Below, piece after piece: positions 3,733 through 31,107 of a stretch of 43,476 nt of DNA. A program made the translations under genes and the position numbers. Below the pieces are notes generated by a model. The model was not told where the DNA came from and ran no database searches. It saw nothing but the letters and a program-made list of their open reading frames with translations. The DNA lies in IMG/VR virus record IMGVR_UViG_3300030419_004817, positions 1-43,476 of that record, one strand, 5' to 3'. Source of the DNA: a virus. How positions within the stretch are numbered: the stretch's first letter is position 1; every line of letters begins with the position of its first letter.

Positions 3733-6700
3733 ATGGCCGAAACTGCAGAAGAAAGACGGGCTCGAATATGGAGAGCAGAGCGAAAAGTTCAAGAAGAAAC
3801 AAGGCTTCTTGGAGAAAGAGAACCAAGATCTGGCAGGTCAGTAACCGCGTCAGAGATGGAAATTGCCGGTGAGGTTTCATCTCCTGCGCTTCCTGGTGTC
3901 ACTCCTCTTGAGATGTCGAACCAGGCAGAGGAGACGATTAAAGCGCTTGCTGATGAATCGATGAGAATCGACGACAACCTCAGTCGAGAAGACGCACTTA
4001 AATTAGCAAGGAGAAAACTTGAATTTGCCCATGTCGGTAACGAAGAGTTTTCTGGAAACCTGCACGGAATACCAGAAAGAACAAAGCCTAGTCTTTCAGA
4101 TTTTAAAAATAGATATGGAGAAAGGCGTGAGGGGTTGAGGCTTACTACCAATCCTAACAGCGCTGTCTTTGAAATTTATGATGCGATAGATGCTGGAGCT
4201 GAAGACAGCGAAATCGAGTCTATGATTGATGACATCGATGCCAGCCTGATTCCATCAACTCTAAAAAACAATGTAAGCACGCTTACTATGGCTACAGGAA
4301 TCTTCAATTATCGAACAATTGATATTGCTGAAGCAACCCCAACACCTCAAGCAAGGTTTGAAAATCGTCGTCAATTGGCTCGAGACATCGATGCCGCCAT
4401 GAGAACCGAGGGCATTCTTCCAGCGTTTGCTATGGCGATGGGTCGTCAGACTATGATGACTGGAGAGGAGGCTCAAAACTTAGGTTTTGATATTGACGCG
4501 ATTCAGAACGGTGCAGACTGGATTGATAGAACAGTCGGGATTGGTGCTGGTATTATTGGCGCGTCATTAGTCACAGGAAGACCGCAAGCTTGGGCAGCAA
4601 CAAAAGTTACGGGCACTCCGTACTTTATTCCATCAGTTAAAGCCAACCCGTTTACAAGAAGCCCTCTTAGATACACAGCATCCAAGGCCGTTGAGGCGGT
4701 TGCCCCCGGCGGAAAAGTAAAAGGGCCTGCTCAAACCCGTCTTGGTCAATGGCTTTATCCAGAAGTCAAAGCAACTGTTCTTCTTCCAGAAGGGCACAAG
4801 TATCAAGGCAAGCTTCCTCCAAGAGTGGGGCCTACTGACTATTGGCTTGCACCAGACGCTGGCGGTAAAAAATACCCAGGATTTAAAGGGCTTAGAAAGT
4901 TTTCTGGCGGTGGCGCTTTAAAAATTACTGGCTCGGCTCTACTGTTTGGCTTTATTGGCTACGGATTGTCAAGGACATCCAGAAACACTCCAGATTTCTG
5001 GAGAGGCATCCCGATGGGGAGAGAGGGCCTCCTTGCTCAAATTAAAGCACCACAAGGTCTTGTAGACTTATCAACGCGGTTTCAAATCCTTACCGGCATC
5101 GCTGATCAATACATTCCTTTTTTCGCTGACAATGAAGAAGATGCTAGGCGTCTTCAGCTCGAAATTAATAGGACGAGGCCAGCGGAAACTTGGAACAGGG
5201 TAATCGAATCTGTTCGTGTATATTTAGACAATGGAATGTCTGTTGAACAGGCGTCTAAAGATGAAGATGTAAAGAACGCTGTTCGGCATCTTATCCTTGG
5301 TCTTACTATTTCAGAAATGCCTGAGCACATTATTCGCGGCAGATTAGACCTTGCTAAGTTTAAGCTTCTCGGCCAGCAAAGGTACGATGAGCTCACTCAA
5401 TCGGATGTTCCTCCAGCGATTCGAACGATTCTTATAGCTGTTGAGAACAACGAACTTACTAACCACGAAATTCGTAGGCACCTTCGTGCTGTTCCGATTG
5501 GTTTGATTGCAAAGTATCTCCCTGAGCTTTTAGACAACCTTATTCCGTCTGAACAAAGCTTTATGGACTCCATTTTGCTTGCGGCTGGTGCGGACATAGA
5601 TGCAATCTTTACGGGTGGCGGAAGAACAACGGTTCCCGCAGCAAGAGCTTTTGGAACGATTTTTATGGAAACCGCCATTGAAAATGGCGAAATCGTTATC
5701 CAAGAAAGCAGCATCGGCAGAATCATGCGTGTCGCTGGTGGATTTCAAGAAGTCTTTATGGAAGCTCCTCTTCCATTTACTCCAGCAGGAATCGACTTTG
5801 CCCGGTCTCCAAACAAACGAGTAAGGGATCCAAACACGTCTTATTTAGCTCGTGTTCTTGCCAACATTTACACTGGCGAGATGGGTCTCTCTAGGCACAT
5901 GACTGACCTCATGTATGCTAAGGGTGTTGATAGAAACTCTGGAGAGTTCCTGTTCTGGGGTAACGTTGGAATCCTTGCAGATTGGTTGGTTCCTTGGGAA
6001 GCGCCGCCTCTTTGGGCTACTGGTCAAGTTTATAGAACCGCCCACAGGGGTTGGAACACATGGAGTTATTGGAGCCACCCAACAGGAAAAAAAGGTTTTT
6101 GGTCAGATGTGGCTAGTTTTGGAGTTGACGACGCGAGCGGTCTCGCTGTTCCTGGTACTGGCAAGGCCAAAAAGAAACCTACAGTAGCGTTTAGATTAGA
6201 CGCCACATTATCTGCAATGTTTCCGAGGCTTAGGTCTAAACGGTTTAGTGTAGATTTAGAAGTCACTCGAGCTGTAAATCATATTCGAGACATTGTTGAT
6301 GACGCTGATTTAAACAATGTCGAAGCTTTAGAAAGGCTTAGTCGTTCTGACGATGACCGGCTTGGTGTGCATGAGCGAAGAGTTTTAGATGCTGTAATCT
6401 CTCACATGAAAAAAACCGGAGATGGTTTTGGGGATTCAATAGACTCAATCCCTGAGATTAAGCACAAAGATCTTTATGCCTTGGCCTCAAGAGGCATTGA
6501 GCTTATGGCTCACAATTCCCTCAACAGCATCGAGGCGGAAAAGTTTCTTGAAACCGTTCCAAGTCACGTTCTGAATGAAGTTCTGGCTATCTATGAAATC
6601 GTTACCGGCACTCCGAGACAAACGATTTTAAAGAACCTCAAGAACATTGCCGCAAAAAGAAAAGGTGTAGCGCTCAAAACTATTGAGCATTTGCTTACTT

Positions 6701-9700
6701 ACGGCGATCCGAACATTATTAATACACGTCAATCAGATGCATATAAGCGTGTAGAAACTGAGCTGTATAACGCTGCCGACAAAGGGCTTATTGATCGGGC
6801 AGAGATTCCAACGATTCTTACAAGCCTTGAAAAACAAGCTTGGCGATATGCGATGGAAGATCGAATCTACGATCCCATTGAGTTCTTTGAATACGTCAGT
6901 ATCAAGTTTGAAAGAGACGGTTTTGAGCCTAAGAAGGCCGACCCTGATGTTGATGTTGATCCAGAAGCAGGAGAAACACCAACTGCTCCGCCACCAACTC
7001 ATTCCGGTAGGCCGACCACTATTGAAACCGATTTTGGTCCGAGAAAGTTTGACCCTGATTTAGGCAGTCTCGGCGTTTGGATTGACTTTGATATTGGTTT
7101 AGGCAAGCCAATTGAGTTTTCTCCAAAAGCAAACAGCAAAGGATATACAGAACGGCCTTTGCGCAGAAGCGTCATTCGAAGAAATGGTGAAGTAGATCCT
7201 GTCCTAAAAGAGGTAATGCGAGGAGAAGCCGATGGTCCTTGGCGACTAAAAGAAGGTGAAGCCCCAATACCAGAATCAATGGATCTCTTTGTTGTTATCG
7301 ATGGTCCTGACGGAAAACCAGTCATTGCTGCTTTTATGGAGCAGACTGATAAAGGCGGGCCAAATCATAGGCTTACTTTTAAAATCAGAACCTTAGAAGG
7401 AACAGACGCCAAGCCTCTTTTTGAGGGCAATGGTTTTAGTGTTGCAGATGTCACCTTGGATTCTATTGTTGCTCAAATCGAGTTGATGGTTGATTCCTTT
7501 CCAGACATTGATGCAGCGATTGTTTTTTCTGATGTTGAGTTGTCTGCTCAGTTCCAGAAGAGACTCAAAGGCGTGCTGAACAGACCTAAAGCCCAGAAAC
7601 ACCCTGATGCACGGCCCTATTCTGTAGTTGAATCAGCCGAAGTTGAAGACGTTAGCGGGGTGGCTGTAAAGAGGCTTAGGGTTGTAAAGGCCGATGACGC
7701 TGACTCATTGATGGACGCTGGCCCTACTAAAAAATACAAAACACAAAGAAGGGCGTTCGAAGAAAAGCTGACACTTTGGCATGAGGAAGGCTTCATCGAT
7801 GAGCCTAACTACTGGTTGACGATGGCTTTGGTTGACATTCTTCCTGATCAATTTTTTAGGAAAGCTTTCCTGGGGGATTCCGGTTCTTTAGACCTGGACG
7901 CTGGTATTACCGATTTAGGCTTCTACAACGTTAGAACTGGCCAAATTAGAATGAACTTCGCCAAGCCTTTAAACGAAGGCCCGATTGAAGAGTTTGCAGA
8001 TATTGACTTCAAACAATTCGGTGAGCTGTTTGCCGAAGAAGTCGATAAAGTATTTGATCAAGTTTCGGTTCTGACTCAAGCCATGATGGACGCCAAAGGC
8101 TCTAAGTCAAGATTAGAAATTGAAAGAAGAATCAAAGAATTATTGAAAAAGAAATTGGGAAGACACATTTCTCATTCAGCTCAACAAGTCATGGACAGGG
8201 TCTTTGGTCCTGGCGCTGCAGGTCAAGAAGAAAAAATTATATTAGCTCTTGCATCGCAAATGACCTTGAAAGTTGGAAAGATTAGCAAAAAATGGAGTGC
8301 CCCAGGAAAAGATCCGATAAGAATTAAAACCGCTGAGGTAATAAGCGAAACGATTGCTCGTTTGACTAAGAATGAAATGCTGGCTCTTTCTGATCCAGAA
8401 ACGAGAGCTTCAACTTTTATTCATGAATTAGTTCATGCTCTTCATGCCACCTTCCTTCCAGAAACAGACATTAGAGCCTTAAGAACGGCATATTTGCGTG
8501 AAGCCTCAAAAGGATTTCCAGACTGGTCAAGGTCTGATGATTTCAAAGGAAGGTACGGTACTGAAACAACCTTTTCAGAGTGGCTTGCTGATACTTTGTC
8601 TGACTATTTGATTACTAAAGAACTTCCTAAGTCTTTGATGGCTCAAAAAGAGTTTGCAGAAAACAAAAGTTATTGGAAAAAGACATTCGACGCTTTCGTT
8701 AAGAAGTTCAAAGCCTTGATGAAATACATTAGAAACGAAAAGGTTTCTGAAGAGTTTCCACCAGAAATTTTGGACATTTCAGAAAGGCTTGTTGAAGGAA
8801 AAATAAGCATCGGTTCTGATGTGTCTTTTGCGGAAAGAGAAGCTCTGTTTCGAAGGCAAGCTGCTCTTGATTTTATTGTGGCAGAAATGTCTTCAGCGGT
8901 TTCTGGACCAATCAAGAACACCCCTGAAAGCATTTCTAAAAACAACCAAAGAATCTTTGAAGTTCTTCAAAACAAGATCAGAGAAGGAAAGTTTACCACT
9001 CAGGTCTGGGGTGATTTTAACGATTCTACTACGCCAGATGCGCAGCGAGTCCTCAATGAGGTTCTTTCTGAAGTAGGCGAGTTTATGGCCTTTGGTCATG
9101 ATTTCGAAACTGCTGTTTCCTTGGTTGCAGTAATGGGTCGTCCAAGTGGGGCTGATGCGTCAGTGCTTGGCATTGGCGATGTCGATAGACTTAATGTTCC
9201 ATGGAGAAACGCAGACTTGCGTTTAGAGTTGTTTGGTCCACTGCGAACAAACGAAAGAATCGCTCCTGATTGGATTCAAGCAGTTGACGATCTTCCATTG
9301 ATTGAAAAACTGAATTTGGCTGATGCGGTTATCAAACAATACGAGCTAAATGAAAGACTGTGGTCTACTCAAGATTTTAGAAAGTATATTATTTCCGGCG
9401 GGAAAACCGGGTCTGTTCCAAGAGACATTGAACCATACTTGTTTTCTACATACAGAAGTGACGTTGACAAGGTTCCCAGGAAAACCTCCAGATATGAGGT
9501 CAGGTACAGCAACCCTGATGATGTCTTAGATGAATTGCTGATGACCAATGAAGATGTTTTTCATCTTACAGAGTTGTTTCAGACTGGTGATTTTAGAAAG
9601 CTGTTTTCAGCAAATGGAAGGCTCATAGCAAGACTTATGGGCGAGACCTGGTACAAAGCGTTTGCTAAGAACTTTGACCATTCAGGAAAGACTTCTCCAG

Positions 9701-12700
9701 TGCTGACTCCATCTGGTGCAGCTCATGCTGCGGATGTGTTTGAGAACTACGTCAATACGCTTGAAACTCCAGACGGAATCAGTCCTCGAGCCATGGATGA
9801 CCTGTATAGAAGCATGCAAGATTTTTGGATCAAGCATCGCCAGCGTGGTTTGGCTACAATCGATCCAAAGACTCGCGCATTCTGGGATAGGTTTTTGCGG
9901 CCAGAGGAGGCTCTTAGAAGAGACGTTTCCGACATGACTTCTAAGTTGGGTCGAACTTTTCCTGGCGACAAAATTAGGCTTGAAACAGAAAAGGCTTTGG
10001 AAGAAGAATCGGCTATTGCACAGGCCCAAAAAAGAACTTTTTATCAAATAGATAGAAGGCTTGAAAACGTTCTACAAGCAATTGGATACAGGCCAGGAGA
10101 GGCCGAAGTTGATCCTGTGGATCTGTTTGCAAGGATTCTTGGCTATGTAAGCGGAGAACATGCACGGAAAACGTTTGGACATGCAATGGATATGGTTCCA
10201 ATGACAACCAGAAGCATTGTTCCAAGAAACAGGGTTAAAGAAATCCAAAAAGCTGTAGATGAGATGTTCGGAGAAATCTTTGCACACAACGATCCGAGCA
10301 AGAACTATGATCCATCTACCAACACCTTTACATTCAACGATTTCGAGGCAGAAGGTCTAAGGATCCACATCCGATCTCTTGCAAGAGAACCCCTTGGTGC
10401 TGCAACTTTAGAGGCCATTCCTGCAGGAACTGGAAAGCACATTACCGATTGGGACAGAGACCTAAATACGGTAACTGCAGATGAGTGGAATGCGATTCAA
10501 ACAGCAACAGTAGATGTTCTTGCTGGCCCCGCAGCTCGTCAGACTAGCTATACACACAAGATACCAAAATCACTTGGGTATGCTTGGTGGAACGCTCTTA
10601 AACAAAGCGGCTCATCAGCCCTTGAGAGATTTGGTCCAGACTCAGGCGACAACGTAATGACCAAGCTTAGGTCTGCGTTTGGTGCTCTTAAGAAGGAACA
10701 GTTTGCTGGTGGAGATTTGAATCCAGAGGCAGTTGAAGCTCTTACAGAGATTATCGCTCAGATTGGAAACGTAGATAAAGATTTTAGGGCTCTTATTGTT
10801 CGCGCAATGCGTTCTGGTGTAGAGGTTGATGAAGGCGAGTTGTTTGCTTTTTTCGAGCACATGTTTCAAGCGCCAGTGGATCCTGCAAAAGTTACAAGGC
10901 TTCTTGGTTCCAGAAAGGACAAAAACAAAGGAACCGAGTTCGTTGAACCATTTAGAGAACGGTTTGACTCGTTTGTTCAAGAACTTAGAAATGCTGATAT
11001 TGATAGCGATTCATACATTCCGCAAAACCCCAAAGATGCTGTAGATCCTATAGATGGAACGGAAGTTGATATCGAGCAAGGTTCTATGCTCATTGAGATT
11101 CTTGATAGCTTAGAAGAGCTTCAAGACATCATTACGAGTCGAGACTTGACTGGAAAAGGAGGGCCTCAAAAACGACGACTTAGAGAAAGAGAACGAGAAG
11201 CCCTAAGAATTCTTGGCCTTTATAGACGAAAAGCGTACAAGGCTTTTGAAGAAGGAAAGACTCCAGACTTTTCTGAAGCAGACCGTCTTGCCATGGGAGA
11301 CGCCCTTTATCGTCTACGAAAAAGCGTAAAAGAAAAAGAAGAAGCAGTAATACAGCGCGGTCGAATCATTCTTGGAGCATTCGTTGGTGGAATGGGTATT
11401 CACCTAGACAGGAGAATCCCAGACGTTGATTTAGGGGCTATCTACAGTTTGTTCTATACAGGAAAGATCGATGAGTTGATGGTTTATGTGTCCAACAACT
11501 TTAAAACTAAAGTTGGTTCAAGACCCGATCAAATGCCCAACTTTAATCCCGGCCTTGCAATGATGGAAGTCATGGCTCGGCTTCGATGCATGGACCTGGT
11601 TGAAGGATTAAACAAGACTCTTCTTAGATCAGGAATCGGTCTTAGCACATGGGACATTGCTAGAACCGGGCGAGGCAAGATTCTTGAACAAGGACCAGAG
11701 GGCGCTGAATATGTTGGTATTAATGAGGATCTCTACTACCAAAGGGTTCTTTGGTATCTAAATCAAGAGCAGCATTATTTGTTAGCAAGAAAAGTCTATT
11801 TCCAAGAAGTAGAAAGCGGACAAGTAGAGTACCAATACCAAGAGTTTCCAGACGCACCACGACAAGACACTACAACGGGAGGCATTTTTCCCGCTGACGA
11901 AATTACTAGAGCAGCAGACAACTTTTTCCCAAGAGACACTCTCGATAATGTCCACGACATGATGGCTTATGAAGCCGCAATGGACATTCTTGATCGTCTT
12001 GGTATGGAGCCATCGAAAAGAGGATTCGAAAGATACACCACCCCTGATGGGCAAGAAATGTTTATGCCCTCTGCTGTGGTTATGGAAATTGAAAATGCCT
12101 ATGACCGAGTATCTCGGGTTGGTGCTGCTTATGGTCCAAAGGCTGATACAACAAGCACAAACAGATTGACTCAAAGCATTTCGGAAAGGATTAAAGAAAA
12201 AGATCTAAATGTTCAAGTTGGAATGGTTGTCAACGAGGGGCTTCAAACTCTTGCCGCCTTGTTTCCTATGACCTTTCGAAACGTTCGAATGGGCGTAACT
12301 ACCGGAATCGGCATTCCAAACCCTGCTTACTATATGGGTGTTGGAATGGGCGGGTTCTTCCAGATGTACCAAGGAATGGGCATTACTGGAACAATTAGAG
12401 CTTTGTTTAGAAACACCGCTCAAACGAAAGCGATTGTAATGGCATTGTATAAAGACGGCCTTACAAAGAATGGCCGCAGAATTGCTATTGATTATTCGCC
12501 TGATGCTCCACCGCTGGTGACCAGACATGGAATGGTCTATTCAACGGAACAGCTTATTCGGTTGACTGAAAACGCTGGACTAAAATCAAGTTTTATTCAT
12601 GCTGAAACAATCCAGTCTTTAACTAAAGACCTTGAAAGAATGTTTTCAGGAAAACCAGGATGGGCAAAAGCTGTTGGTCGCGGAGGTCGTGAATGGCAAA

Positions 12701-14148
12701 GGACTCTTATTGAAACAGCCACCGCGATGGACAATTTCTATCGCGTAAGCATTTTCCTTGATTACCTTGAAAGAGGATTTACTCCAGCTCATGCGGCAGA
12801 ACGCGCCCGCAAGTTCTTGTATGACTACGCCGATTTGAGCGAGGCCGAGAAAAAGGTTGGTCGCAACCTGATCATGTTCTATTCCTACCTGAGAAAGAAC
12901 CTTGATCATTTCTGGGAGACATTGCTTACCAACCCAGCCCGACTCATTGGTCAGATTAGAATGGTTCGTGGTGTGCAGCAGGTTTATCTTAGTGATGATC
13001 CAGAGATCATGATGAGGGAGTATCAGATCAATAGGCTTCCCGTGTTTATTAGAAACACGCAGATAAACACGCAAAGAACTGCACAAATAGCCTACATTAC
13101 GCCGCCTCTTCCAATGATGGATGTTTTGAACTTGTATGTAGACATTGTGGATACTGGAGTGATTCCGGGCTTAGGAGGCGAAAGCAGAGGAGATGCTATT
13201 CGTGGTTTGGCGTCACGATTTATGCCGCACATTCAAGCTCTTCCTGTCCTGGCAACAGGTAAAGATATTTTCTACAACAGGTCTCTTGATGACTACAACA
13301 AGGTTCCGCCCTGGCTTGTTGAGATTGACAGAGCAATTTCTGGCGGAATGCTTGTTGATGGACTCTTTGACGTTACTCCAAGAAGTCATTTGGATGCCAC
13401 TAAAGCAGACCAAATTGGTTTACCAGAACAAGGCTGGTTCCACGCTAAGAACGGAAAAGCTTGGTGGATTTGGCGCAATCTTATGCAAACCCCTGGTGGC
13501 GGTAGGTCAATGGATACTTTCAATTGGCTGGATAGGGCCAACACGGGCATTTTAGAAGCGTTTGTTGCTGCAACAAGAGCCGCATCTCGTAAGTTAGACA
13601 GACCTATTCTCAAACCGTTTGGTGCAACATGGTCTGAAATGAGGGCCGATCCAACAGCATATATTGATAGACAGGGTGATCCAATGTCAGCCCGGCATAC
13701 TTTAGATAGGCCGATGAGACAGCTTCATCCTCGAATCAACATGATGGAGCTGACTCTTACAAGCGACATGACTGAAGATGAAGTTCGCGCCAAAGCGGCG
13801 TCGGCTGGTGTAAAAGACGTTTGGATGAAAAACGCAAAAGGCGAATATAAAGTCCACCTGAATGATGTCATTACAAAGTTGATGGAAAAACAGGCAACAG
13901 AATTCAGTTTGTCAGAGCTTGCTGGAATGTTTGGAATCAAGCCAGTTTATCTTCCAACACGAAGCACTGTGAGAGCCAGGGCTCAGACAAGAGCTAAGAA
14001 CAGAATGCTTATGCAAGAGCGCCAAGCAGCCCTTACTACTGATCCAAACGTCGAACAGACGTACACTGCAGAACAACAGAAAGCTAATCAAGAAGCCCTA
14101 AAACAAGGCCCTATCACTTTGGAGGGACTAAAGTATGAAGAATGGTAA
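3733..14148 (+). CDS. Giant 3471-aa polyvalent-type virion protein with zincin motif
   Basis: This is a single uninterrupted 3471-codon frame. Weakly hydrophobic segments lie near residues 269-280 and 396-416. The zinc-protease motif HELVH is at 1564-1568, followed by FSEWLADTLSDYL with Glu1616 as a candidate third ligand, which is the usual zincin layout. Around residues 3000-3056 the sequence includes FLYDYADLSEAEK and IMFYSYLRKN. This resembles the C-terminal region often seen in very large phage polyvalent proteins, where a Tyr-rich DYSDL-type motif precedes FYxxxRKN. Such proteins are thought to be packaged and ejected with the DNA, and the protease may process virion or host proteins. 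The stop codon comes from a duplicated 24-bp sequence at 14099/14146. Function is inferred; the motifs are seen directly. Confidence 0.9.
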   Translation: MAETAEERRARIWRAERKVQEETRLLGEREPRSGRSVTASEMEIAGEVSSPALPGVTPLEMSNQAEETIKALADESMRIDDNLSREDALKLARRKLEFAHVGNEEFSGNLHGIPERTKPSLSDFKNRYGERREGLRLTTNPNSAVFEIYDAIDAGAEDSEIESMIDDIDASLIPSTLKNNVSTLTMATGIFNYRTIDIAEATPTPQARFENRRQLARDIDAAMRTEGILPAFAMAMGRQTMMTGEEAQNLGFDIDAIQNGADWIDRTVGIGAGIIGASLVTGRPQAWAATKVTGTPYFIPSVKANPFTRSPLRYTASKAVEAVAPGGKVKGPAQTRLGQWLYPEVKATVLLPEGHKYQGKLPPRVGPTDYWLAPDAGGKKYPGFKGLRKFSGGGALKITGSALLFGFIGYGLSRTSRNTPDFWRGIPMGREGLLAQIKAPQGLVDLSTRFQILTGIADQYIPFFADNEEDARRLQLEINRTRPAETWNRVIESVRVYLDNGMSVEQASKDEDVKNAVRHLILGLTISEMPEHIIRGRLDLAKFKLLGQQRYDELTQSDVPPAIRTILIAVENNELTNHEIRRHLRAVPIGLIAKYLPELLDNLIPSEQSFMDSILLAAGADIDAIFTGGGRTTVPAARAFGTIFMETAIENGEIVIQESSIGRIMRVAGGFQEVFMEAPLPFTPAGIDFARSPNKRVRDPNTSYLARVLANIYTGEMGLSRHMTDLMYAKGVDRNSGEFLFWGNVGILADWLVPWEAPPLWATGQVYRTAHRGWNTWSYWSHPTGKKGFWSDVASFGVDDASGLAVPGTGKAKKKPTVAFRLDATLSAMFPRLRSKRFSVDLEVTRAVNHIRDIVDDADLNNVEALERLSRSDDDRLGVHERRVLDAVISHMKKTGDGFGDSIDSIPEIKHKDLYALASRGIELMAHNSLNSIEAEKFLETVPSHVLNEVLAIYEIVTGTPRQTILKNLKNIAAKRKGVALKTIEHLLTYGDPNIINTRQSDAYKRVETELYNAADKGLIDRAEIPTILTSLEKQAWRYAMEDRIYDPIEFFEYVSIKFERDGFEPKKADPDVDVDPEAGETPTAPPPTHSGRPTTIETDFGPRKFDPDLGSLGVWIDFDIGLGKPIEFSPKANSKGYTERPLRRSVIRRNGEVDPVLKEVMRGEADGPWRLKEGEAPIPESMDLFVVIDGPDGKPVIAAFMEQTDKGGPNHRLTFKIRTLEGTDAKPLFEGNGFSVADVTLDSIVAQIELMVDSFPDIDAAIVFSDVELSAQFQKRLKGVLNRPKAQKHPDARPYSVVESAEVEDVSGVAVKRLRVVKADDADSLMDAGPTKKYKTQRRAFEEKLTLWHEEGFIDEPNYWLTMALVDILPDQFFRKAFLGDSGSLDLDAGITDLGFYNVRTGQIRMNFAKPLNEGPIEEFADIDFKQFGELFAEEVDKVFDQVSVLTQAMMDAKGSKSRLEIERRIKELLKKKLGRHISHSAQQVMDRVFGPGAAGQEEKIILALASQMTLKVGKISKKWSAPGKDPIRIKTAEVISETIARLTKNEMLALSDPETRASTFIHELVHALHATFLPETDIRALRTAYLREASKGFPDWSRSDDFKGRYGTETTFSEWLADTLSDYLITKELPKSLMAQKEFAENKSYWKKTFDAFVKKFKALMKYIRNEKVSEEFPPEILDISERLVEGKISIGSDVSFAEREALFRRQAALDFIVAEMSSAVSGPIKNTPESISKNNQRIFEVLQNKIREGKFTTQVWGDFNDSTTPDAQRVLNEVLSEVGEFMAFGHDFETAVSLVAVMGRPSGADASVLGIGDVDRLNVPWRNADLRLELFGPLRTNERIAPDWIQAVDDLPLIEKLNLADAVIKQYELNERLWSTQDFRKYIISGGKTGSVPRDIEPYLFSTYRSDVDKVPRKTSRYEVRYSNPDDVLDELLMTNEDVFHLTELFQTGDFRKLFSANGRLIARLMGETWYKAFAKNFDHSGKTSPVLTPSGAAHAADVFENYVNTLETPDGISPRAMDDLYRSMQDFWIKHRQRGLATIDPKTRAFWDRFLRPEEALRRDVSDMTSKLGRTFPGDKIRLETEKALEEESAIAQAQKRTFYQIDRRLENVLQAIGYRPGEAEVDPVDLFARILGYVSGEHARKTFGHAMDMVPMTTRSIVPRNRVKEIQKAVDEMFGEIFAHNDPSKNYDPSTNTFTFNDFEAEGLRIHIRSLAREPLGAATLEAIPAGTGKHITDWDRDLNTVTADEWNAIQTATVDVLAGPAARQTSYTHKIPKSLGYAWWNALKQSGSSALERFGPDSGDNVMTKLRSAFGALKKEQFAGGDLNPEAVEALTEIIAQIGNVDKDFRALIVRAMRSGVEVDEGELFAFFEHMFQAPVDPAKVTRLLGSRKDKNKGTEFVEPFRERFDSFVQELRNADIDSDSYIPQNPKDAVDPIDGTEVDIEQGSMLIEILDSLEELQDIITSRDLTGKGGPQKRRLREREREALRILGLYRRKAYKAFEEGKTPDFSEADRLAMGDALYRLRKSVKEKEEAVIQRGRIILGAFVGGMGIHLDRRIPDVDLGAIYSLFYTGKIDELMVYVSNNFKTKVGSRPDQMPNFNPGLAMMEVMARLRCMDLVEGLNKTLLRSGIGLSTWDIARTGRGKILEQGPEGAEYVGINEDLYYQRVLWYLNQEQHYLLARKVYFQEVESGQVEYQYQEFPDAPRQDTTTGGIFPADEITRAADNFFPRDTLDNVHDMMAYEAAMDILDRLGMEPSKRGFERYTTPDGQEMFMPSAVVMEIENAYDRVSRVGAAYGPKADTTSTNRLTQSISERIKEKDLNVQVGMVVNEGLQTLAALFPMTFRNVRMGVTTGIGIPNPAYYMGVGMGGFFQMYQGMGITGTIRALFRNTAQTKAIVMALYKDGLTKNGRRIAIDYSPDAPPLVTRHGMVYSTEQLIRLTENAGLKSSFIHAETIQSLTKDLERMFSGKPGWAKAVGRGGREWQRTLIETATAMDNFYRVSIFLDYLERGFTPAHAAERARKFLYDYADLSEAEKKVGRNLIMFYSYLRKNLDHFWETLLTNPARLIGQIRMVRGVQQVYLSDDPEIMMREYQINRLPVFIRNTQINTQRTAQIAYITPPLPMMDVLNLYVDIVDTGVIPGLGGESRGDAIRGLASRFMPHIQALPVLATGKDIFYNRSLDDYNKVPPWLVEIDRAISGGMLVDGLFDVTPRSHLDATKADQIGLPEQGWFHAKNGKAWWIWRNLMQTPGGGRSMDTFNWLDRANTGILEAFVAATRAASRKLDRPILKPFGATWSEMRADPTAYIDRQGDPMSARHTLDRPMRQLHPRINMMELTLTSDMTEDEVRAKAASAGVKDVWMKNAKGEYKVHLNDVITKLMEKQATEFSLSELAGMFGIKPVYLPTRSTVRARAQTRAKNRMLMQERQAALTTDPNVEQTYTAEQQKANQEALKQGPITLEGLKYEEW

Positions 14149-17207: not shown

Positions 17208-17561
17208 ATGGCTACAATCAGCAAAGTACTTCTTGGCGGAAGCACCCAGGGCAAAGGAATCAAGGTTACGGGCACTAGCACTGGTGCTGCTGTTACTGTT
17301 CACACAGCAGTGAGCGGCACGACCGACATTGATGAAATCTGGTTGTGGGCTGCTAACCAGCACACCGGCACTGTTGAGCTAACCATTGAATGGGGCGGCA
17401 CAGCCGCTGACGACTTGATTGTTGTTGATGTTGCTGAGGAAGCCGGTCTTGTGCAGATTGCACCAGGCATTCCTCTTCAGAACGGCCTTGTTATAAAAGC
17501 GTTTGCAAACCAAGCAAACGTGATCAACATCTTTGGATTTGTAAACAGGCTGGACATCTGA
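17208..17561 (+). CDS. Small virion-associated protein, paralogue of 19477-19863
   Basis: The product is 117 residues and starts at an ATG preceded by a weak GGATCA. It shares a clear pattern with the 128-residue product of 19477-19863: DEIWLWAANQHTG against DEVWLWMTNIDTT in the middle, and IFGFVNRLDI against VVGYVNRITD at the end. Beta-strand-rich composition with no charged catalytic cluster suggests a compact decoration or fibre-tip protein. Its stop overlaps the next ATG (TGATGA), so translation is coupled to the 329-residue gene. Confidence 0.8.
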   Translation: MATISKVLLGGSTQGKGIKVTGTSTGAAVTVHTAVSGTTDIDEIWLWAANQHTGTVELTIEWGGTAADDLIVVDVAEEAGLVQIAPGIPLQNGLVIKAFANQANVINIFGFVNRLDI

Positions 17562-18857: not shown

Positions 18858-19049
18858 ATGGAGCAGAGAGTAAGAAAGCTTGAAACGGACGTAGCTGTTC
18901 TTGGCCAGCGCGTTGATACTACGGAGGCTGAAGTGTCCGCAATTCGTGTTGATATTCAAGGCATTAAGAAGGAAATCCACAAAGCCCAAGGGCTGATTCT
19001 CGCAACCATCGTCATCATGCAGTGCATTGCGATTTTTATGGAGGGGTAA
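18858..19049 (+). CDS. XhlA-like small coiled-coil membrane protein (63 aa)
   Basis: The ATG at 18858 is chosen because AGGGGATGT precedes it and the upstream in-frame sequence lies inside the previous gene. The 63 residues form an N-terminal heptad coiled coil (EQRVRKLETDVAVLGQRV, then TEAEVSAIRVDIQGIKKEI), followed by one C-terminal membrane segment (LILATIVIMQCIAIFM). This is the layout of haemolysin XhlA-type phage proteins, which sit in lysis cassettes. It is followed without a gap by two more small probable membrane genes, which supports a membrane or lysis role. Assignment is by architecture only. Confidence 0.7.
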   Translation: MEQRVRKLETDVAVLGQRVDTTEAEVSAIRVDIQGIKKEIHKAQGLILATIVIMQCIAIFMEG

Positions 19050-19211
19050 GTGGAAGGCGATGTCGTAGCTCAATACCTGGACCTGGGAATGACCATGGGA
19101 TTTATTGGCTACCTCATCAACCAAAATCGGCGGATGGGCCGCCAGCTCACAAAAATGACTCGGAAATATGAAGAGCTTTTTGAGCGCGTACTAAAGAGGG
19201 AATGTGAGTGA
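19050..19211 (+). CDS. Small probable membrane-associated protein (53 aa)
   Basis: A GTG start immediately follows the previous stop, with GAGGGG as ribosome site. The 53-residue product has a moderately hydrophobic N-terminal stretch (YLDLGMTMGFIGYLI) and then a basic amphipathic helix (RRMGRQLTKMTRKYEELF). The reading frame ends eight bases inside the next gene, so the three genes from 18858 to 19467 are translationally linked. The layout, a short membrane-touching helix followed by a charged helix, is seen in holin accessory and spanin-like proteins, but no family is recognised. Confidence 0.6.
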   Translation: MEGDVVAQYLDLGMTMGFIGYLINQNRRMGRQLTKMTRKYEELFERVLKRECE

Positions 19212-19467
19212 GGGTTCTACCAACCCTTTGTCCAACATGCCTCCGTGGGGCTGGATACTCGTTTATCTTGCTGGCGGATCTGCAATAGGAGTAGGCGGCA
19301 TTGAACTTAGTCATGGCTCTCACGACTCAGATCAAGAATGCCCCGACCCAGGCTTTGCTCTTCATCAGGCAGAGAAAGAAATAGAAGAACTAAAGGAAGC
19401 TCATGAGTCAATGGTGTCCAGTATTGGTATGATTTCTGGGTTATTGTCTCAATGCCAACAGCAATAG
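19204..19467 (+). CDS. Membrane protein with C-terminal coiled coil, candidate lysis protein (87 aa)
   Basis: A GTG start overlaps the previous gene by eight bases. Residues 14-33 (WGWILVYLAGGSAIGVGGIEL) form one membrane segment. A soluble charged helix follows (ALHQAEKEIEELKEAHESM). One transmembrane helix plus a coiled coil fits an inner-membrane spanin or a class III-like holin. No partner lipoprotein is nested in the gene. Two Cys residues, one near position 45 and one at the end (LSQCQQQ), could form a disulfide. The role is inferred from neighbours. Confidence 0.65.
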   Translation: MSEGSTNPLSNMPPWGWILVYLAGGSAIGVGGIELSHGSHDSDQECPDPGFALHQAEKEIEELKEAHESMVSSIGMISGLLSQCQQQ

Positions 19468-19476
19468 GAGGTTGAT

Positions 19477-19863
19477 TTGGCAACCTATGCAAAAATTAAC
19501 CTGTCACCTGGCGGAACAGAAGGAGACGGAAACCCGATTACTATCACGGATACTGCCGGAAACGGTTCCTTTATTCACGACACAGGAACGTCTTCAGGCA
19601 TTCGAGATGAAGTTTGGTTGTGGATGACCAATATTGATACAACTTCTATTTTAGTAACTCTACACGTTGGCTATGTAAGCAGCGCGTCTGCAGCAGACGC
19701 TGAAAAAGTAATGTTCAAAGTTCCTCCCCAAACAGGGTTGATGCTTGTGCTCTCTGGACATTCTGTTCGTGGGACCGGAAGCGCTGCCAGAAGAATCGCT
19801 GCTATTGCCGACACTGCGAATAAAATCAACGTGGTTGGTTATGTCAACAGAATCACCGATTAA
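19477..19863 (+). CDS. Paralogue of the 117-aa protein at 17208 (128 aa)
   Basis: A TTG start is chosen because a perfect AGGAGG (19467-19472) sits four bases upstream and no ATG or GTG is suitably placed. The 128-residue product shares DEVWLWMTN in the middle, a PxTGLML core and the terminal VGYVNRITD with the 17208 protein, so the pair arose by duplication. The protein is beta-rich and neutral. Because its paralogue sits in the fibre operon, a virion-decoration or fibre-tip role is the best inference. Confidence 0.8.
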   Translation: MATYAKINLSPGGTEGDGNPITITDTAGNGSFIHDTGTSSGIRDEVWLWMTNIDTTSILVTLHVGYVSSASAADAEKVMFKVPPQTGLMLVLSGHSVRGTGSAARRIAAIADTANKINVVGYVNRITD

Positions 19864-20104
19864 TAAGAATCGATGGCAAGACAATGAGTCTTTTGTTCAG
19901 TGGCTTTTAGAACAGCAATATGCAGAGCTTCGAGAAGATAGGGTTTACCCTTTCTTAAGCGGCGGTGCAGTGCTTTATATGTATGAAGCTTGGTGTGCTG
20001 GGCATCAAGAAGCAAAACAACCAAAGCCATTAGTATGCCAGTGTGATGTTTGTAGAAAAGTCCAAATAAGGGAAAAGGACGATGGCACACTTCTCGTTAG
20101 ATGA
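19841..20104 (+). CDS. Small protein with Cys cluster (87 aa)
   Basis: The ATG at 19841 lies inside the end of the previous gene (23-base overlap) and is the first start in the frame that does not read far back into it. The 87 residues contain an aromatic amphipathic N-terminal half (FVQWLLEQQYAELRED) and a C-terminal CQCDVCRK cluster like half a zinc knuckle. The end overlaps the next gene by another 23 bases. No family is recognised. The short nested spacing suggests coupled translation with both neighbours. Confidence 0.6.
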   Translation: MSTESPINKNRWQDNESFVQWLLEQQYAELREDRVYPFLSGGAVLYMYEAWCAGHQEAKQPKPLVCQCDVCRKVQIREKDDGTLLVR

Positions 20105-20570
20105 GTTTGTTGGAGCAATTCAAGAAGCCGTAATCAAATCAACAGATATCGCTGAACAGCACGAACTGAATCACATTCAGCAAGAAGAATATTGGATTGA
20201 TACAGGCGAAAAAGCTTCTGACGGAAGCCCAATATACAAACCAAGAATGGTGACTGTTCGTCTTCCTGTGTGGGAAGAAGGAAAACAGATTGAACGAGAC
20301 GTTCAAATTCCGATGCAAACACTCGTCACCGGACAATCTTTAGCGATTGATGCACTTACTGTTGAAATGGATATTGAACTTCAGGGCATGCAAGATGGCG
20401 CTGACATTGGTTGTACTCATCGCAAGCTAAAAATAAATCCGTCTGTAGGTGGCAATGGATGGTTTGCTAAAAAACGAAATACTGCTAAGATTTCCATAAC
20501 TTTTAAAGGGCAAGAGCCTCCTGAAGGTTATGCTCGAATCGACAATCAACTTATTAAACTGCTCCCGTAA
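20082..20570 (+). CDS. DUF2589-related protein (162 aa)
   Basis: The ATG is preceded by AAGGGAAAAGGA. The middle of the protein reads MQTLVTGQSLAIDALTVEMD and the end reads ISITFKGQEPPEGYARI. Both follow the same pattern as the 212-residue DUF2589 protein at 21148 (ILAILNTPSLAVKEVEVEF and a C-terminal MPEGLKR helix). The two therefore appear to be divergent relatives placed 600 bases apart with three tiny basic genes between them. DUF2589 proteins have no established biochemical role. Membership of this protein in the family is inferred from this shared pattern. Confidence 0.75.
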   Translation: MAHFSLDEFVGAIQEAVIKSTDIAEQHELNHIQQEEYWIDTGEKASDGSPIYKPRMVTVRLPVWEEGKQIERDVQIPMQTLVTGQSLAIDALTVEMDIELQGMQDGADIGCTHRKLKINPSVGGNGWFAKKRNTAKISITFKGQEPPEGYARIDNQLIKLLP

Positions 20571-20575
20571 AAAAC

Positions 20576-20830
20576 ATGGCCAAACCAGCAAAAGGAAAAG
20601 CGAAAGTCAAAGTTACTGCTTCAGGCAAAAGAGTTTCTTATGGCCAAGCTGGCAAAGCCAAAGGCGGCGGTCGTCGTGTAAAGCCTGGCACATCGAAAGG
20701 TGATGCTTATTGCGCTCGTTCTGCTGGAATTAAGAAGCGGCTTTCTAAGAAAAAACAGAACGATCCAAACACCCCAAACAATCTTTCGAGAAAACGCTGG
20801 AAGTGCAAAGGCACTAAGAGCATGAAGTAG
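20576..20830 (+). CDS. Small basic phage protein (84 aa)
   Basis: The ATG lies five bases after the previous stop. The product is 84 residues, strongly basic, with KPGTSKGDAYCARSAGI and NNLSRKRWKCKG. The combination GDAYCARSxGI and NPNSPxxLSRKRWKC is a pattern I associate with a widespread small phage protein of unknown function. The two Cys may bind a metal. It is the first of three consecutive Lys-rich genes (20576, 20836, 20992). Its charge suggests DNA or RNA binding. Confidence 0.8.
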   Translation: MAKPAKGKAKVKVTASGKRVSYGQAGKAKGGGRRVKPGTSKGDAYCARSAGIKKRLSKKKQNDPNTPNNLSRKRWKCKGTKSMK

Positions 20831-20835
20831 AACAC

Positions 20836-20982
20836 ATGGCTAAAAACAGTTTGTATGGAAACATCAATAAGCGTAAGAAAGCAGGGACAAGTCGTTCCAA
20901 GTCAAACTCGACCATCTCGTCGAAGACTTACAGTAAGATGAAGAAGAAAACAGGCTCATTCAAAGCCAAGAAGAAGAAGTAG
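20836..20982 (+). CDS. Lys-rich mini-protein (48 aa)
   Basis: The ATG at 20836 opens a 48-residue frame that ends TAG at 20980-20982. The sequence begins MAKNSLYGNINKRKKAGTSR and ends in a KAKKKK tail. About a third of residues are Lys or Arg. The pattern KKAGTSRxKSxSTIS is familiar from small proteins in marine phages, with no known function. Ribosome site is poor (AGAACAC), but the spacing to both neighbours (5 and 9 bases) supports a true gene. Confidence 0.7.
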   Translation: MAKNSLYGNINKRKKAGTSRSKSNSTISSKTYSKMKKKTGSFKAKKKK

Positions 20983-20991
20983 GGGTGCGTT

Positions 20992-21132
20992 TTGCCTGTA
21001 CAGAAAAAACTTTCGAAGATTAGTAAAGAGCTGAAGAAAGCCTCGAAGATGCATGCGCGGCAATCGAAAGCCGTAAAAAAAGTAGCGAAAGGTCTTGGTT
21101 CGAAAAAAACCTCAACACGAAAAAAGAAATAG
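20992..21132 (+). CDS. Lys-rich mini-protein (46 aa)
   Basis: A TTG start is inferred from AGGGG six bases upstream and the lack of another start. The 46-residue product is nearly all charged or small residues (QKKLSKISKELKKASKMHA, ending TSTRKKK) and should form a basic amphipathic helix. It closes the run of three Lys-rich genes and is followed by an AGGAG site for the DUF2589 gene. DNA compaction or a virion-internal role is possible; no family is assigned. Confidence 0.65.
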   Translation: MPVQKKLSKISKELKKASKMHARQSKAVKKVAKGLGSKKTSTRKKK

Positions 21133-21147
21133 ACTTAGGAGCTTGTA

Positions 21148-21786
21148 ATGGCTGATGGCCTCGTAAAAATGTCCGACCAGTTTGGTGGTCTTCCAATGGA
21201 TCAACTTATCGGTGGTCCGCTGGCGGCTGCTTGTAACTCCCAGGTTCAGCTTGCTAAAGCTACTGCGGATTTTATTCAAACCGTTGGTTTGGAGACTGAC
21301 GCCAATGGCCTGATGAAGGCGAGGACGGTGGACTTTACCTATTCTAAGCCCGTGAACGACGGGGCTGGTGGATACACTGAAGTCACGAATCAACTTGATG
21401 TTCCGATTCTTGCGATTCTAAACACTCCTTCATTGGCGGTGAAAGAGGTGGAAGTTGAATTCACTATGGAAGTGAAGTCTAGCACTTCATCTAAATCTAG
21501 TCGCGATTACGAAGCGACAATGGATACTGAGGTCAAAGCGGGCTGGGGTCCAGTTAGTGTTGATGTCAAGATCCACGGTTCCATCTCCGCCAAGAGCGAA
21601 AACACTCGCTCTTCCGACAACTCAGCAAAGTACAACGTCAAGGTTCTTGCTCGTGATGACGGAATGCCTGAGGGCCTCAAACGATGCCTTGATATTGTGC
21701 AGTCTGCGATTGCGGAAAAACCTGCCGCTGCTCCTGCTGCCAATCCTAATCCTCCTGCTCCCACTCCTTCCGGTCGAGGTGGCTAA
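21148..21786 (+). CDS. DUF2589 domain protein (212 aa)
   Basis: The ATG is preceded by TTAGGAGCT. Residues 13-30 (GGLPMDQLIGGPLAAACN) and the later ILAILNTPSLAVKEVEVEFTM are hallmark stretches of DUF2589, a bacterial family of unknown function. A middle beta-rich region (VSVDVKIHGSISAKSEN) and MPEGLKRCLDIVQSAI follow. A Pro/Ala tail (AAAPAANPNPPAPTPSGRGG) ends the protein, apparently a disordered extension. The gene overlaps the next ATG. The family is usually seen in bacterial chromosomes, so its presence in a phage late operon beside a relative (20082) is notable. Confidence 0.85.
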   Translation: MADGLVKMSDQFGGLPMDQLIGGPLAAACNSQVQLAKATADFIQTVGLETDANGLMKARTVDFTYSKPVNDGAGGYTEVTNQLDVPILAILNTPSLAVKEVEVEFTMEVKSSTSSKSSRDYEATMDTEVKAGWGPVSVDVKIHGSISAKSENTRSSDNSAKYNVKVLARDDGMPEGLKRCLDIVQSAIAEKPAAAPAANPNPPAPTPSGRGG

Positions 21787-22154
21787 TGGCTATTACAGCA
21801 ACCAATCAAACGCTTTCGTTAGGCGCAGACATCATTCATGATACTGGTCCCGGCCTTACTGCTGTTGAAGACGTGGCTGGCGGAGGGGGCACTTGGTATA
21901 CAATTGTTTATGTAAGCGGAGACGCCAACACTGCTTACCTCAAGTTGTTTGATTCGGCTGACATTACACCAGGAACAACACAACCAAACTGGATTCTTCA
22001 AATGAAGCCAAACGATACTACTGTTTGGACCGTTCCTGATGGTGTGACGTTTTCTAATGGTCTTAGCTACTTTGTGTCTGAAGAGAATGGAAAGGAAGCA
22101 AGTACTGGTCCAGCAGGCACCAACAAACTCACTATCATTCTGAAACGGAGTTAA
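21786..22154 (+). CDS. Hypothetical beta-rich protein (122 aa)
   Basis: The ATG overlaps the previous stop (TAATGG). The 122-residue protein has features of a small beta-sandwich (WYTIVYVSGDANTAYLKLF, TVWTVPDGVTFSNGLSYFV). Its general form recalls the 117- and 128-residue proteins (17208, 19477): a short soluble domain with a hydrophobic PDGVTF/NGL turn before the last strands. No sequence family is recognised. A virion surface role is possible. Confidence 0.75.
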   Translation: MAITATNQTLSLGADIIHDTGPGLTAVEDVAGGGGTWYTIVYVSGDANTAYLKLFDSADITPGTTQPNWILQMKPNDTTVWTVPDGVTFSNGLSYFVSEENGKEASTGPAGTNKLTIILKRS

Positions 22155-22156
22155 AA

Positions 22157-22564
22157 ATGGCAGCAAGTTTTACTACTAAAAGAGCAAAACTAATTGATTA
22201 TGTCGCTACCGAAACTGACGCCACGACGACTGAGGCGCAGGACATTAGCGGTGCTGTTGCTGACCTTGGCATTATGATTGTTGAAGTAGACAATACGCAG
22301 AACAGCAGCGATGCTGTACACGCCGCTTTATACAACGATGGGTCAGACGTTAATGTAGGTGTTGATGATCCAGACTTGTTGTTTCGAGTTCAGGGTGGAG
22401 TAAGCCGACAGTTTATTGGCATTATTAACAGCGGCGCACCAAGCAGTACGACATTTGGCAATCTTGCAATCGCTGGCGTTATTGAAGCAGGAGCTATTGG
22501 CGTAAGCCCAACCTCGCCCACTTCTGATGTGATTGTTCGCGTTGGCATCAAGAGCATGGGGTAA
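22157..22564 (+). CDS. Hypothetical beta-rich protein (135 aa)
   Basis: The ATG lies two bases after the preceding stop. The 135-residue product is rich in Val, Ala, Asp and Thr, with VATETDATTTEAQDISGAVA near the start and VIVRVGIKSMG at the end. It has no signal, membrane or catalytic motif. It continues the run of small beta-type proteins and ends eight bases before the lysin. It may be another decoration protein. Confidence 0.75.
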   Translation: MAASFTTKRAKLIDYVATETDATTTEAQDISGAVADLGIMIVEVDNTQNSSDAVHAALYNDGSDVNVGVDDPDLLFRVQGGVSRQFIGIINSGAPSSTTFGNLAIAGVIEAGAIGVSPTSPTSDVIVRVGIKSMG

Positions 22565-22571
22565 ATGAGCT

Positions 22572-23387
22572 GTGCTAATCAAAGTCGGATCCCGTGGAGA
22601 TGAAGTCAAAGACATTCAAAAGGCTTTGAACGACAAGGGCTATGGCCAGATCGGTGTAGACGGAATCTTTGGTAGAGGCACAGAAAAGGCCGTAAAGCGC
22701 TTCCAGAAGGCGTCAGGACTAGCAGCAGACGGAATCGTGGGGCCTAACACCCTAAAGGCTTTACAAGCCGCTGAGGAGCCAAAGCAGCCCGAAGTGTCTG
22801 ATGAGCCACCACCTATCATCAATGTGTTGAAGAAAAAGGACTACGAAGTTTATACCGATGGTCAAATCAACATTATTGGCGTCAGATCAAACAACACGAT
22901 CTCCAATAGCTTTGACGATGAGATGCACTTGGTATGGGTGAACAACGGATTGTGGCAGCACAAAAAATACAGAATCACCACGGATCCGGGGGCGTATTGC
23001 CTTGAACATCCTGAGGTTTACGGTCGTGCTGCTGGCACCGCAATCATGGTTCCCGGCTCATACAGGGCGTATAAGTGGGATATGCACCGTGGAAAGTACC
23101 TAACTTTGTGTCAACGGGCAGCGCCCATCCGCGTCTGGCGTGACAATGATCGGAATAACATTTTGTCGTTTGGCCATGACGACGACCCTGGAATCGAGGG
23201 CTGGTACGGTGTGAATTTGCACCATGCTGGGGAGAACTCTACGCGAGTAGATAAGTGGTCGGCGGGCTGCCAGGTGTTTGCCCGAATCGCAGACTGGGAA
23301 GAAGCGGTTAGTATTTGGAAGGCGTCAGGTGCTGAGGTTTTCACATATACACTCATTACCGAAGACGACCTGTCTGAGGAGACATAA
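22572..23387 (+). CDS. Lysin: peptidoglycan-binding domain plus HxH/SxGCQ catalytic-like domain (271 aa)
   Basis: A GTG start is chosen so that the N-terminus begins directly with the PG_binding_1 repeat (VGSRGDEVKDIQKALNDKGY then GVDGIFGRGTEKAVKRFQ, residues 4-63). A linker follows, then a C-terminal domain with NLHHAG, about ten residues, and WSAGCQVF near residues 215-235. The His and SxGC arrangement resembles the active site of L,D-transpeptidase-type enzymes, but this catalytic domain is not a standard lysozyme or amidase. It probably cleaves or remodels peptidoglycan at lysis. No signal peptide is seen, so a holin is expected. The gene overlaps the next by one base. Confidence 0.85.
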   Translation: MLIKVGSRGDEVKDIQKALNDKGYGQIGVDGIFGRGTEKAVKRFQKASGLAADGIVGPNTLKALQAAEEPKQPEVSDEPPPIINVLKKKDYEVYTDGQINIIGVRSNNTISNSFDDEMHLVWVNNGLWQHKKYRITTDPGAYCLEHPEVYGRAAGTAIMVPGSYRAYKWDMHRGKYLTLCQRAAPIRVWRDNDRNNILSFGHDDDPGIEGWYGVNLHHAGENSTRVDKWSAGCQVFARIADWEEAVSIWKASGAEVFTYTLITEDDLSEET

Positions 23388-31013: not shown

Positions 31014-31031
31014 TATCGTCTCTCCAAAGAG

Positions 31032-31107
31032 GCTGGGGCAGCAGGACTCGAACCTGCAACCTCCTGATTAACAGTCAGGCGTTCTGCCAATTGAACTACA
31101 CCCCAGC
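31032..31107 (-). tRNA. tRNA-Asn (GTT)
   Basis: The 76-nt reverse-complement sequence folds as a full cloverleaf. Acceptor arm GCTGGGG pairs with CCCCAGC. The anticodon stem CCTGA/TCAGG flanks loop CTGTTAA with anticodon GTT (Asn). The T arm has GCAGG, loop TTCGAGT and CCTGC. No CCA is encoded at the 3' end. It sits between SSB and the lipoprotein gene, in the same strand as both. Confidence 0.95.

Follow-up and report, generated by a model that had tools for sequence, protein, structure and literature searches.

The protein family DUF2589 (Pfam PF11655) is, to our knowledge, one to which no role has been assigned. In the open literature searched, nothing was found on it beyond a passing mention in a list of induced genes of Archaeoglobus fulgidus, an organism without murein that is reported to have DUF2589-related genes (PMC3949148), and neither a pairing of two such genes nor a murein-hydrolase neighbour of DUF2589 was found described in the same literature. 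Two ORFs of the window, i.e., the whole stretch of viral DNA analysed here (43,476 nucleotides, positions 1 to 43,476 of IMG/VR virus record IMGVR_UViG_3300030419_004817), match the whole of this domain far above its cut-off of 23 bits; they are hereafter called A, the short paralogue, and B, the long paralogue.

With respect to gene context, A and B resemble the holin-endolysin-spanin cassettes of phages, in that they share a small operon with a leaderless murein hydrolase and occupy a late position in the window, but they are not predicted to be membrane proteins or lipoproteins and their bacterial versions usually come without an evident holin gene. No part of DUF2589 in type 10 secretion is known to us. 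In this type of secretion, proteins are released by means of a lysis cassette, e.g., in Yersinia entomophaga (PMC10847048, PMC10101115); the bacterial A and B may likewise belong to a phage-derived lysis module for protein release, a resemblance that is one of analogy only, drawn from operon context, whereas type 10 secretion uses holin and spanin proteins. As for the XhlA-type haemolysin/holin-associated proteins (PF10779), the candidate in the window is a gene upstream of A (18858-19049, + strand), possibly holin-associated, encoding a coiled coil with a C-terminal hydrophobic segment; its product matches phrog_1193, “hemolysin” (E 2e-4), and its homologues have one predicted transmembrane (TM) segment, but its match to PF10779 (E 0.011) lies below the curated cut-off and it is thus only weakly XhlA-like.

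Identity and features of the two DUF2589 proteins

In a Pfam HMM search, A (20082-20570, + strand, 162 amino acids) matches PF11655 with 61.6 bits (E 1.5e-16, positions 2-153 of the 154 of the profile) and B (21148-21786, + strand, 212 amino acids) with 144.9 bits (E 3.4e-42, positions 1-153 of 154), and both ORFs are preceded by a ribosome-binding-like sequence. The preliminary description had taken B for a DUF2589 protein and A for a probable relative, and had named an HMM search of both as one check; the search bears out the assignment of B and, as it also returned a DUF2589 match for A, makes the latter a true member of the family. The layout of B comprises the N-terminus LPMDQLIGGPL, the core NTPSLAVKEVEVEFTMEV, the motif ENTRSSDNSAKYNVKV and a Pro-rich tail. 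Among 20 viral B proteins, the residues GLP, LI, VPxL, DNSAKY and EG are invariant or nearly so and the B of the window has them all; in a second viral group, IGGPL is replaced by IVSPx or IVQPx. For A, a low-confidence model predicts a long N-terminal helix, a strand-rich core and a short C-terminal helix, the AlphaFold models being poor for both proteins (pLDDT of 57 for A and 45 for B).

Other searches returned little. Neither B nor profiles built from A and B retrieved a relative of solved structure from the PDB sequences, NCBIfam and PADLOC gave nothing useful for either protein, and in PHROG A had no match and B a best match of only E 0.27. Pfam matches of B to MATH and Trypco2 were weak and below cut-off and, among annotated phage records, the sole relative was one unannotated 4-kb faecal contig. 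Respective to the known components of lysis, (i) a simple hydropathy scan gave no convincing TM segment of the kind that a canonical holin has in A or B, the stretches flagged being mostly the conserved VPLLAIV core and not of the length of a TM helix, (ii) neither an N-terminal TM segment nor, by eye, a lipobox was found, i.e., the inner-membrane anchor or lipobox of a spanin, and (iii) Pfam gave no catalytic murein-hydrolase domain within the proteins themselves, but only DUF2589 and, in some A proteins, a peptidoglycan (PG)-binding domain.

Distribution and descent of the pair

A scan of viral sequences with B yielded 79 loci, each with an A homologue adjoining B, and scans with two bacterial B proteins yielded 84 further viral loci, 82 of them with both genes and the other two stopping at a contig edge. 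Together with the window, A therefore adjoins B in 162 of 164 viral loci (161 of the 163 others), the two exceptions being those at a contig edge; A precedes B in 91 and follows it in 71. Of 50 loci from bacteria or plasmids, 32 likewise contain both genes, so that the search for the gene pair in other phages and bacteria, as proposed in the preliminary description, found it in both; in most of the remaining ones B stands alone and is of a different subtype, often with two further conserved genes behind it. The view of the family as mostly bacterial needs correcting: DUF2589 is frequent in contigs of uncultured phages, with 132, 124, and 174 confirmed stretches in three IMG/VR scans that overlap, but sparse among the bacteria sampled, where carriers amounted to 9/399 (one phylum), 2/189, 10/198, 15/248, 3/300, and 5/247 genomes in six samples.

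In a tree of both proteins, A and B lie on opposite sides of a branch with a support of 100, the window A within the A clade, with the exception of a few rows, namely from loci L194 and L211, where B is duplicated, and L210, where the pair is mislabelled. Moreover, the distances among A proteins correlate with those among B proteins (r 0.69, 0 of 2000 permutations, 48 loci). Such a combination of two clades and correlated trees indicates that the pair is ancient and co-inherited: judged from their sequences, A and B are ancient paralogues common to phages and bacteria, for which the simplest reading would be a single early duplication, after which the two genes were inherited jointly in both. 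The two-gene module is defined here accordingly, as adjacent genes of the A clade and the B clade.

Some further genes recur beside DUF2589. The second subtype, i.e., a single B with two conserved unnamed genes (about 225 and 185 amino acids), is found in L132, L133, L200, L202-L205, L208, L209, and L212-L216, and in L132 neither of the two genes has a Pfam match. A zinc-ribbon-like protein of 62-105 amino acids (CPxC...CPxC) adjoins the pair in L043 (11420-11623) and 32 other viral loci as well as in the bacterial loci L196, L198, L199, and L211, and is possibly a third component. Finally, a protein of 83-124 amino acids (FDLSxIxFVKRIxVG...GEHQVVLQ), without Pfam match, is encoded after B at many bacterial loci, in L127 (8997-9263) and also in L084, L128, L149-L151, L191-L195, and L207.

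Gene neighbourhood in the window and in other phages

Between A and B, the window contains three Lys-rich mini-genes (all on the + strand), encoding 84 amino acids (20576-20830; homologues in five loci, absent from most A-B phages), 48 amino acids (20836-20982; phrog_25774 of unknown function, E 6.4e-13) and, from a TTG start, 46 amino acids (20992-21132; homologues in five loci). The gap between A and B is at most 15 bases in 72 of the 91 A-B phage loci and, at other loci, is occupied by different Lys-rich ORFs. As such, A and B do flank these mini-genes in the window, as was described, but as variable inserts, and a place for them as a fixed part of the module is rejected because most relatives do without them.

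Upstream of A, two small genes of the + strand appear by eye as candidate lysis accessories, the first (19050-19211) encoding 53 amino acids with a hydrophobic N-terminal part and a charged tail, without Pfam match and with homologues upstream of A in 17 loci (cluster c13), the second (19204-19467) encoding 87 amino acids with a short hydrophobic stretch and a charged tail (cluster c19, 12 loci), for which Pfam and PHROG gave no convincing family. The window further holds two members of the small-protein family phrog_30535, of unknown function (17208-17561 and 19477-19863), a giant ORF of 3471 amino acids (3733-14148) with a HELVH zinc-protease-like motif and resembling a large internal virion protein, and a tRNA-Asn (GTT) on the - strand (31031-31105), inside a block of reverse-strand genes.

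Downstream of B come two small genes that are recurrent neighbours of the pair, for proteins of 122 amino acids (21786-22154, + strand; cluster c2, 27 loci) and 135 amino acids (22157-22564, + strand; cluster c2), and then a gene for a murein-active enzyme (22572-23387, + strand) with a PG_binding_1 domain (PF01471, E 3e-21) and an L,D-transpeptidase-like domain. This enzyme matches phrog_3000 and endolysin PHROGs, is related to the PDB endolysin 7rum (E 7e-14) by its PG-binding part only, and displays a conserved H and SxGC within the motif NIHxxG...STxxxWSAGCQVF; L,D-transpeptidase-like by this motif only, it is a candidate lysin. Among the phage loci, a seed enzyme is found within 2.1 kb of the pair in 52 of the 107 testable ones, whereas in the 55 others none of the families searched for turned up over a distance of about 2 kb. 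In other phages than that of the window, a GH19 gene touches A in L053 and lies near B in L056, a GH24 gene plus the L,D-transpeptidase-like gene stand beside the pair in L078, a lysozyme-like gene precedes B by two genes in L041, and in a group of deep-branching A-B phages the enzyme is encoded on the other strand and points towards the pair. The A proteins of the giant phages L038, L043, and L065 themselves carry an insert, which Pfam identifies as PG_binding_1 in L038 and L065. Patatin-like phospholipase genes adjoin the pair in phage L043 (8334-9296) and in bacterium L213 (8134-9171).

The late-operon location had been seen as a lead to function, suggesting a virion or assembly role. The context does provide a lead, but that role is unsupported since the pair is also found among replication genes (L035), directly behind the major head gene as part of a trio (L074), and in stand-alone operons in bacteria. 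That A and B would be virion or ejection proteins, the adjoining enzyme then being a virion-borne lysin for entry, seems to us unlikely: while the late position in the window, the fibre-like and small repeat-family proteins upstream, the L074 trio after the head gene, and the L041 enzyme, which is similar both to tail/internal-virion lysozymes and to endolysins, would all suit such proteins, the position of the pair differs between phages, the stand-alone bacterial pairs adjoin endolysin-type enzymes, and no phage structural family is among the top 25 families listed for the near genes.

Murein hydrolases beside the bacterial pairs

Within 2.05 kb of DUF2589, 18 of the 50 bacterial loci encode a murein hydrolase without a leader; at the 32 others, none of the hydrolase families searched for turned up over a distance of about 2 kb. 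The enzymes found belong to unrelated families, namely GH24 (L127, L152, L192), GH19 (L126, L130), GH108 (L085, from Luteibacter, and L134), N-acetylmuramidase (L084, L151), pesticin-type (L131, L193, L195), Amidase_3 (L128), M15 (L132, L213), CHAP (L214), and PG-binding (L086, L202), the weakest of the 18 being the M15 of L132 and the PG-binding protein of L202, which have no Pfam match at E 1e-3 and were called by reading the sequence. Along the B tree, the type of hydrolase changes at least 16 times, from which it follows that the enzyme slot was refilled many times.

A further 426 kb of sequence flanking the bacterial loci gave no homologue of the 12 seed enzyme families. Because 11 of the 12 seed enzymes were taken from these same loci, the less biased part of the comparison is provided by the non-seed hydrolases, i.e., 7 of the 18, all of which are near DUF2589 (P 0.0017). 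Genome-wide, in 42 carrier genomes, 7 of 39 copies of PF00959, PF00182, PF11860, and PF05838 lie near DUF2589 vs. 0.06 expected (P 7e-13); as the choice of families was made with near copies already in view, one such copy was discounted for each family, which gives P 3e-5. A Pfam survey of near and far genes (150 each) lists the top 25 families only, for which reason the single-copy hydrolases were confirmed singly and their rate tested genome-wide; LuxR/response-regulator and Mor families are among the near genes listed. The A/B pair is thus linked to swappable murein-active enzymes in roughly half of the phage loci that could be tested and in a sizeable minority of the bacterial ones.

This link could be indirect, the pair and the hydrolases merely travelling together in phage-derived islands where DUF2589 would have an unrelated task, e.g., in folding or regulation. 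Mor regulators and phage-type endolysins are indeed phage-derived and many loci have no hydrolase, but the tight operon order, the different enzymes found in the same slot and absent from nearby flanks, and the PG-binding domain nested in A make such co-travel improbable.

Sixteen hydrolases from beside the pair have neither predicted TM segment nor obvious export signal. TM genes are few in the hydrolase-bearing bacterial operons, most of which have no evident holin, the counts of TM genes and neighbours being approximate since the locus gene calls are simple ORF picks. Leaderless hydrolases of these kinds, pesticin-type muramidases included, are also used as effectors and, considering the patatin neighbours in L213 and L043, A and B might instead serve an antibacterial effector module, where they would provide leaderless murein hydrolases and lipases with an adaptor, a carrier or an immunity function; yet secretion-system genes were not seen in the loci read, phages show the same pairing and PADLOC gives A and B no defence match, and we consider this rather implausible. 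Large toxin-like or DUF4157-like genes, recognised by eye or, in L150, from the record annotation, occur near DUF2589 in L216 (2622-6818), L150 (415-1938), and L133 (6276-8093), and might be cargo released by lysis.

Proposed role of the pair

The recurrent murein-hydrolase neighbour fits a role in lysis/egress better than one in the virion or its assembly. Whether A and B together form a single heteromeric component, each contributing one half, of a murein-hydrolase lysis/egress module is, in our estimation, evenly balanced. In such a module, A and B would bind each other to form a complex acting at the envelope, which would either (i) let the leaderless hydrolase reach the wall, or (ii) complete the rupture of the envelope, i.e., a holin- or spanin-like task performed by non-membrane proteins. 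In phages, the module would release the progeny; in bacteria, where genes for regulators of LuxR or Mor type sometimes lie nearby, it would work on its own for lysis or the release of proteins. Since the hydrolases have no predicted TM segment or obvious export signal and most of their bacterial operons no evident holin, A and B are a candidate for the missing step. The more specific proposal that they form a new class of soluble two-protein lysis/export factor replacing holins or spanins, which would carry leaderless hydrolases of any fold to the wall, or admit them to it, and serve phage egress as well as bacterial programmed lysis or protein release, is put forward tentatively, as rather doubtful. 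Counting against the lysis/egress reading are the loci without hydrolase (55/107 in phages and 32/50 in bacteria), the contexts of L035 and L074, the DUF2589-related genes reported in the murein-less A. fulgidus, the assignment of the window enzyme by motif only, the weak XhlA resemblance upstream of A, and the poor quality of the models of A and B.

Relative to the sources searched, the A/B module is novel, and its biochemical role is one that we infer. For DUF2589, the present analysis raises a testable question, namely, do two non-membrane proteins help wall enzymes to leave the cell? If so, the pair would constitute a new part for phage lysis and for lysis-based protein release in bacteria.
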